Source: Thermoproteaceae archaeon (GTDB taxonomy: Archaea > Thermoproteota > Thermoprotei > Thermoproteales > Thermoproteaceae). Taken from it: a stretch of 64,000 nucleotides of DNA. The notes beneath the pieces were generated by a model that saw only the letters and a list, made by a program, of their open reading frames with translations, ran no database searches and had not been told where the DNA came from. The position numbers were made by a program, and so were the translations under genes. This document shows, one piece after another, positions 29,286 to 30,460 of this stretch. Position 1 is the first letter of the stretch, and the number at the start of each line of letters is the position of its first letter. The stretch spans positions 1 through 64,000 of the forward strand of contig WANN01000012.1 in the NCBI GenBank assembly GCA_015521775.1, given 5' to 3'.

Positions 29286-29813
29286 TCACCGCGATTCTTC
29301 GCGGCACTCACAGGGACCCAGCCATGGGGCTGCCCGTCTAACCGTATCGCGTGACTGCTCCCATCTTTCGCACAGCCACTCTGGTATATGCGGCCTCCTA
29401 ACAATGTCGTAGTAATCGTACGGCTTCAAGTCCAGCACAGGCGTGCCTGTCCAGGCATCCAAGCCCTTGACGAACACCTTAGGGGGAGACACCCCGAGCA
29501 GCTCCACCACGCTTAGACCTATGGGGTTAGGTCTAGGGGGAAAACGCGTGGCGAACACTCCGACGTCCGGCAGGTCTTCCCTTCCCCATGGCCTCACAAC
29601 GAGCCTCGTATCACGTACCTCGTGCATCCAGTATATCACAAATATGTGGGAGTACCCTTCAAGCCCCAGCAGACCAGCAGCGTACCGGTTGAACACCCTT
29701 ATAGTGGACACAACGTTGTAACGGGAGCCCCTCGCTGAGGGGGGCCTGTCAATGCCCACATCGACCACGCCTATGGGCCTAACACGTATTTCAGCACTTA
29801 GGTCACTCGCCAT
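29286..29813 (-). CDS. trmO: tRNA (N6-threonylcarbamoyladenosine37-N6)-methyltransferase
   Basis: 175 residues, TrmO/YaeB family, SAM-dependent methylation of t6A37 in tRNA. Strong signature GVFATRFPPRPNPIGLSVVELL near residue 85, preceded by IYWMHE and followed by VKGLDAWTGTPVLDLKPY. No TATA is at the leaderless distance; the nearest good box (GATATAAAG on the minus strand, near 29914) would give a leader of about 75 nt. That leader contains a short ORF and a C/D-box sRNA candidate overlapping the trmO start codon. An in-frame TGA just upstream rules out earlier starts. Confidence 0.9.
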   Translation of the reverse strand: MASDLSAEIRVRPIGVVDVGIDRPPSARGSRYNVVSTIRVFNRYAAGLLGLEGYSHIFVIYWMHEVRDTRLVVRPWGREDLPDVGVFATRFPPRPNPIGLSVVELLGVSPPKVFVKGLDAWTGTPVLDLKPYDYYDIVRRPHIPEWLCERWEQSRDTVRRAAPWLGPCECREESR

Positions 29814-29840
29814 CCTTCAGGGCCTGCGTAGGCTCATCAT
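29791..29840 (-). ncRNA. C/D-box sRNA overlapping the trmO start
   Basis: Best sRNA candidate in the window. On the minus strand: C box ATGATGA (29834-29840), 13-nt guide, D' CTGA (29817-29820), 3-nt spacer, C' ATGGCGA, 12-nt guide, D CTGA (29791-29794). C, D' and D are exact consensus, and the spacing is that of archaeal 2'-O-methylation guides. The C' box contains the trmO ATG. The D guide would pair with CACTTAGGTCAC and the D' guide with GGCCTGCGTAGGC; targets not searched. No TATA sits directly upstream, so it may be processed from the trmO leader. Confidence 0.62.
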
Positions 29841-29886
29841 CTCCAGCTCGCTTGGATCCGGGCAGCGCCGCGCCATGCGCACGCAT
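29803..29886 (-). CDS. Possible 27-residue leader ORF of trmO
   Basis: ATG 29886 lies about 28 nt from the TATA near 29914, the leaderless spacing. The reading frame runs 27 codons and ends at a TGA within the first codons of trmO, so termination could couple to trmO initiation. The peptide (MRAHGAALPGSKRAGDDEP...) has no recognisable motif and its DNA is also the sRNA candidate. It may be translated or only transcribed. Confidence 0.3.
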   Translation of the reverse strand: MRAHGAALPGSKRAGDDEPTQALKDGE

Positions 29887-29926
29887 CTAGGCTTAATGGT
29901 CTTGGCCCCTTTATATCGTTGGCCCA

Positions 29927-30460
29927 TCATATGTCCCCTGGACCTCTTTGTCTGGCTCTAACATGGATACCCCTACATATGGCCGAGGCGAGCGCTTCTG
30001 GGTCATCGCTGTAGGTGAGCGGCGCCAGTCCCCTTCTGTCAAAGGCATGGGGAAACGCGTCCATTAGGCTGTCGCTTTCCATGCCGGTCCCAGTCAACAC
30101 GTACACGGGCTTGCCCATGACATATCCGAGGAAAGCTTCGATCATGGTCCCCACGGCCCCTCCGAGGACCGCCACAGCATCACACGACCTCACCATGATG
30201 ACAGAGCGACACCTATAGTCACAACCCGTTCTAATTGGTATGCCGGGCACCTCCACGTCCTCCCTCTCTATTGGCAGGAAGAATATGGTGGTCATGCCAA
30301 GCGCCCTGGCCAAGTCAGCTACAACCTTCATTAAGCCCCAGTAACCACCAAGAAGAACCATGGGTGAGCACTCCCTTAGAGCCGACATGAAGGAGGAGAC
30401 CTTCTTAACGTTGTCGTCGCTGTACTCGCCGCTGTGCGCGGCCACCGCCACCATGAACAT
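29927..30460 (-). CDS. LOG/SLOG-family Rossmann protein (TIGR00725-like)
   Basis: 177 residues. VLLGGYWGLMKVVADLA near residue 36 and AVLGGAVGTMIEAFLGYVMGKPVYVL near 97 are the GGxxGxM and GGxGTxxE motifs of the LOG-like (cytokinin-activating/nucleotide hydrolase) fold. It likely binds or hydrolyses a nucleotide derivative. TATA (TATATACTA region near 30485) is 25 nt upstream of the ATG and probably also serves the divergent MFS gene. Confidence 0.8.
   Translation of the reverse strand: MFMVAVAAHSGEYSDDNVKKVSSFMSALRECSPMVLLGGYWGLMKVVADLARALGMTTIFFLPIEREDVEVPGIPIRTGCDYRCRSVIMVRSCDAVAVLGGAVGTMIEAFLGYVMGKPVYVLTGTGMESDSLMDAFPHAFDRRGLAPLTYSDDPEALASAICRGIHVRARQRGPGDI

Follow-up and report, generated by a model that had tools for sequence, protein, structure and literature searches.

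A predicted tRNA-Leu guide RNA of the C/D-box type overlapping the 5' end of a trmO-like gene in a Thermoproteaceae archaeon

The trmO leader and its C/D-box elements

The window, a 64,000-nucleotide stretch of DNA from a heat-loving Thermoproteaceae archaeon, contains a trmO-like gene whose leader and first codons harbor the elements of a C/D-box sRNA. The features of the locus are as follows:

29286 to 29813, minus strand: trmO-like gene, 175 amino acids, Pfam TrmO_N (6.9e-29)
29803 to 29886, minus strand: 27-codon ORF ending inside trmO
29910 to 29916, minus strand: TATA element ATATAAA, beginning 103 nt before the trmO ATG and retained in the sister genome
29791 to 29840, minus strand: predicted 50-nt C/D-box sRNA body, C box through D box (from the sequence read and its identity in the sister)
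29834 to 29840, minus strand: C box ATGATGA, exact to the RUGAUGA consensus (PMC4644070)
29821 to 29833, minus strand: D' guide GCCTACGCAGGCC, 13 nt, pairing with the variable-arm base and T-stem of tRNA-Leu
29817 to 29820, minus strand: D' box CTGA (exact), its TGA doubling as an in-frame stop just 5' of trmO
29814 to 29816, minus strand: D'-C' spacer AGG, 3 nt (from the sequence read)
29807 to 29813, minus strand: C' box ATGGCGA, made up of the trmO start codon and the four bases after it, 5/7 to RTGATGA
29795 to 29806, minus strand: D guide GTGACCTAAGTG, 12 nt, pairing with nt 31-39 of tRNA-Leu(UAG)
29791 to 29794, minus strand: D box CTGA (exact), within trmO codons 7-8

Reading of the minus strand bore out the initial annotation, which had described exact C, D' and D boxes, guides of 13 and 12 nt and a 3-nt spacer, and had equated the C' box with the initiation site of trmO: ATGGCGA is formed by the first seven bases of the gene. 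Since the TGA of D' is an in-frame stop directly upstream, the ATG of C' is the first possible start codon of trmO. As in other archaeal C/D-box sRNAs, the outer C and D boxes are exact, and an internal pair is present, in which D' is exact and C' has lost one sheared G-A position but carries a TGG variant also found in a homologue from a relative (G002, see below). The guides agree with the usual length of about 10-12 nt, the D' guide lying one nucleotide above the typical range stated in PMC4644070. A terminal stem was not evident in the sRNA.

The TATA element is the presumed promoter of a transcript spanning the sRNA and trmO; its measured distance of 103 nt fits the earlier estimate of about 100 nt. 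In several relatives, a TATA-like element is situated roughly 25-30 nt before the trmO start; the leader of this genome and its sister may therefore have been inserted between the promoter and trmO. The 27-codon ORF terminating within trmO exists as annotated, but was rejected as a gene because replacement and silent changes are mixed in the comparison with the sister and a coding signal is lacking. An alternative upstream reading frame was likewise discarded, since the sister has a 1-nt deletion that puts it out of frame. The gene upstream of trmO (29927-30460, same strand) encodes a SLOG-domain protein (Pfam LDcluster4), whose stop at 29927 lies just before the TATA element. The role of TrmO in archaea is uncertain, m6t6A not having been found in archaeal tRNA (PMC4132733).

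Arrays of this kind are rare by chance. In a relaxed C-D'-C'-D scan of the window, the trmO-leader locus was the sole match (score 20), and 60 first-order shuffles searched on both strands gave two matches in total, none of them scoring above 19. Pattern searches, from which all genome-wide sRNA counts given here derive, detected three exact TGATGA-CTGA-CTGA arrays in the 1.4-Mb assembly and none in the reversed control; in seven relatives, there were 18 matches to this pattern versus three in the controls. In an Rfam search of the trmO-leader sRNA, no C/D family reached the threshold.

The sister genome (G001; contig JALWZH010000151.1 in GTDB) does not differ at any of the 50 positions of the sRNA body, whereas 9 of 76 positions between TATA element and C box and 44 of 502 in the remainder of trmO have changed. 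According to our own binomial estimate, the probability of 0/50 changes at a rate of 12% or 9% is about 0.002-0.01; for the 27 noncoding nucleotides of the sRNA alone it is about 0.03, a value that is suggestive at most. Conservation of the boxes upstream of trmO had been proposed as a check. It held within the sister, where boxes and guides are invariant in a changed leader, but not in the other relatives read (outside the genus), in which C/D boxes 5' of trmO were absent. The arrangement of sRNA and trmO is thus known in two species only.

A guide family beside serS

Homology to the 3' half of the sRNA was found elsewhere in the family. Over C' box, guide and D box, the G002 sRNA is identical to the trmO-leader sRNA at 19 of 24 positions, including the TGG in C' (GTGGAGA in G002). 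A degenerate pattern derived from these two sequences matched 16 of 19 Thermoproteaceae genomes (this one and the sister counted), nearly always in a single copy and with zero mismatch in five genomes outside the genus. Since this pattern originated in part from the trmO-leader sequence, a second one weighted to the consensus of the relatives was applied. It again returned the trmO-leader locus as top match in this genome and in the sister, and no better second copy in either of them.

A complete C/D sRNA could be read in 14 relatives (L122-L135), the general form being RTGAYGA-...CAGGCTAG-CTGA-NNN-TGAVGA-GGGATCTAARCG-CYGA. In most of them the sRNA lies tail-to-tail with a gene carrying a class II tRNA-synthetase domain (Pfam PF00587), which we read as serS, and in the serS-adjacent sRNAs the D box abuts the serS stop codon. 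Rfam models sR60/sR1 matched the sRNA of one relative weakly, under the curated cut-offs. The serS-adjacent sRNAs occur in Thermoproteus- and Pyrobaculum-type genomes, and the family may already have been catalogued for Pyrobaculum by Lui et al. 2018. Its D' guide matches the D-loop of tRNA-Gly(UCC) (CUAGCCUGG), from which a C in the D-loop, about C16, is predicted to be methylated.

The trmO-leader sRNA has the C' box, D guide and D box in common with the serS-adjacent guides, as well as the predicted target of the D guide, U34 of tRNA-Leu(UAG). It differs from them in gene neighbourhood, in its D' guide, which is not of the CAGGCTAG type, and in the target of that guide. Because both the position at the 3' end of serS and the D' guide differ, the two sRNAs are regarded as sharing a module and not as full orthologues. 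In this lineage, serS is located on the same contig, about 40 kb from trmO (L218, G000:C12:69284-70195). Its 3' flank is devoid of a C/D sRNA in this genome and in the sister; since the usual site of the family is empty, the module appears to have moved, and relocation into the trmO leader is the most likely explanation of its position. A transfer of guide modules among sRNA genes has been proposed before (PMC4644070).

Predicted targets in tRNA-Leu

The conserved core of the D guides, GGAYCTAA, is complementary to UUAGRUCC. Among the tRNAs scanned in this genome and the sister, the anticodon arm of tRNA-Leu(UAG) was the sole place where this octamer occurred; the arm was subsequently read in relatives too. 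An N+5 alignment places guide nucleotide 5 opposite U34, which is paired in every member aligned, and contiguous pairing to the anticodon arm covers 9-11 nucleotides in most members. At guide nucleotide 3, which faces U32, nearly all members have A or G, and at nucleotide 8, which faces G37, they have C or U; the variation at both positions is thus compatible with the pairing. By contrast, the GAG and CAG isoacceptors of tRNA-Leu are mispaired with the D guide at the target position.

The copy in the trmO leader forms nine contiguous pairs with nt 31-39, seven of them Watson-Crick and two G:U. Seven contiguous Watson-Crick pairs are fewer than the usual nine (PMC4644070); of the three differences from the G002 guide, two are pairing-neutral, leaving the nine contiguous pairs. 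Taken alone, this match is not significant, as 135 of 400 shuffled D guides found an equal run in some tRNA, and the assignment of the target is for this reason based on the family. When shuffled guides were limited to the tRNA-Leu(UAG) site, 45 of 20,000 succeeded; for the Pyrobaculum-type D guide, 6 of 1500 shuffles reached a run of 11. Most likely, the D guide directs ribose methylation at the wobble position U34 of tRNA-Leu(UAG). In another crenarchaeote (acidocaldarius, PMC7668247), tRNA-Leu(UAG) has been observed to bear a methyl mark at this position. The serS-linked family, present in most of the Thermoproteaceae genomes searched, thereby gains a concrete predicted target. Comparable guides are known from Pyrococcus, whose sRNAs are aimed at nucleotide 34 of tRNA-Leu(CAA), tRNA-Leu(UAA), tRNA-Met and tRNA-Trp (PMC7994747); wobble-base methylation is predicted likewise here, but the Pyrococcus guides concern other isoacceptors and in the trmO-leader sRNA both guides are directed at tRNA-Leu.

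The D' guide pairs at all 13 positions (11 Watson-Crick, two G:U) with GGCCUGCGUGGGU, located at the variable-arm base and T-stem of tRNA-Leu. This genome has the match in four genes and the sister at three loci. In two series of shuffled guides, 10 of 3000 and 6 of 1500 equalled it, and only one other of 394 CTGA-preceding 13-mers tested matched as well. Across the N+5 position, the D' guide contributes nine Watson-Crick pairs and four more, and the D guide nine pairs including two G:U, in its case with the support of the family. The target of the D' guide would be a U at the variable-arm base of the tRNA-Leu isoacceptors. Given the pairing of one guide with the tRNA-Leu(UAG) anticodon arm and the 13/13 match of the other, both guides of the trmO-leader sRNA appear to point at tRNA-Leu. 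The tRNA-Leu genes of this genome (L187, L194, L201) seem to carry an interruption 5' of the anticodon, at a site that is not canonical; compared with the intact genes of relatives, they show similarity only from about query nt 36 onwards.

A search of rRNA and tRNA for two target strings had been suggested in the initial annotation, and both strings proved to match tRNA-Leu and not the rRNA of relatives. As neither a 16S nor a 23S rRNA gene turned up in this assembly, the test for rRNA targets was confined to relatives, whose 16S and 23S sequences yielded chance-level matches for the trmO-leader guides. For the family D guide, an attractive 23S site (ACAUAGGUCCC) was dismissed on account of a mispair at guide nucleotide 4.

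Origin of the module and possible effects on trmO

On the whole, we regard it as well supported that the locus contains a C/D sRNA overlapping the 5' end of trmO, which would guide methylation of tRNA-Leu, most likely includes a relocated module and probably imposes a cost on the overlapped gene. Within this scheme, 29840-29791 would encode the sRNA, and its 3' half coincides with the beginning of the trmO reading frame. Transcription would start about 25 nt past the TATA element and run through the sRNA into trmO. As in published sRNA biogenesis, L7Ae, Nop5 and fibrillarin would assemble on the boxes, and trimming of the exposed ends would leave an sRNP of about 50 nt. Each transcript could then give either the sRNA or TrmO mRNA, and the overlap would probably lower trmO output as a result, as a cost and not as a regulated switch.

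That the sRNA is a genuine guide RNA is very likely. The imperfect C' box and the Rfam scores below threshold would also be expected if coding and leader sequence resembled an sRNA by accident, but such a coincidence is highly improbable in view of the box statistics, the conservation in the sister, the family and the two tRNA-Leu matches taken jointly. It is equally improbable that the leader merely forms a k-turn in the trmO 5' UTR which binds L7Ae for translational control and does not guide methylation. Sulfolobus l7ae offers a precedent for control of this type (PMC5539422); however, both guides complement tRNA-Leu, and conservation of the D guide extends to other loci. As to the origin of the sRNA, it might be a new formation at the trmO leader that came to match tRNA-Leu(UAG) independently of the serS-linked family. 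The deviating D' guide and location would suit such an origin, and so would the vacant site downstream of serS in this genome and the sister. Nevertheless, we consider it rather unlikely, since convergence would have to account for the 19/24 identity with G002 (TGG of C' included), and only 112 of 100,000 shuffles of the D guide reached 9/12 identity to the G002-type guide. Relocation of the module is therefore preferred. On this view, a guide module may retain its target in spite of a new gene neighbourhood and a new partner guide, and may even provide the initial codons of a protein-coding gene. The trmO-leader sRNA is a known kind of RNA in an unusual position, the first trmO codons being half of a guide RNA.

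Archaeal C/D sRNAs often overlap the ends of ORFs; in 7% of the sRNA genes studied the overlap is with a 5' end, and a reporter placed downstream of such an overlap was expressed at a lower level (PMC7994747). These cases resemble the trmO locus in box anatomy, spacing, overlap with the start codon and expected processing from an mRNA-type transcript. They differ from it in that their start codon is mostly located in a guide or past the D box, while that of trmO lies in the C' box. Regulation of trmO by the overlapping sRNA is plausible. It could take the form of a built-in control, as originally proposed, in which sRNP assembly or processing removes or hides the start codon and trmO expression follows the level of L7Ae or the sRNP. 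The coincidence of C' box and start codon, the reported effect of 5' overlaps (PMC7994747) and the repression by L7Ae of its own mRNA via a 5'-UTR k-turn (PMC5539422) speak for this mechanism, which is compatible with a function as guide RNA. As in the L7Ae system, an L7Ae-binding motif would be expected near the start codon of trmO, but there it belongs to a complete C/D guide RNA and control is putative. On the other hand, the arrangement with trmO is confined to two species, and the same module adjoins serS elsewhere, indicating that its main role is independent of trmO. Built-in control is therefore possible but not favored, and a simple overlap cost is the likelier interpretation. Still more doubtful is a coupling of two tRNA-modification activities, in which a single transcript becomes either a tRNA-Leu guide or the mRNA of a putative methyltransferase and the balance is set by the sRNP on the start codon.

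A second C/D candidate with exact boxes was noted at L057 1501-1547 (G000:C9:102910-102956), TGATGATTTTCGCCCCCCTGACAGGTGAGGGGAAGAAGTACCGCTGA; it is nearly identical in the sister (L078).
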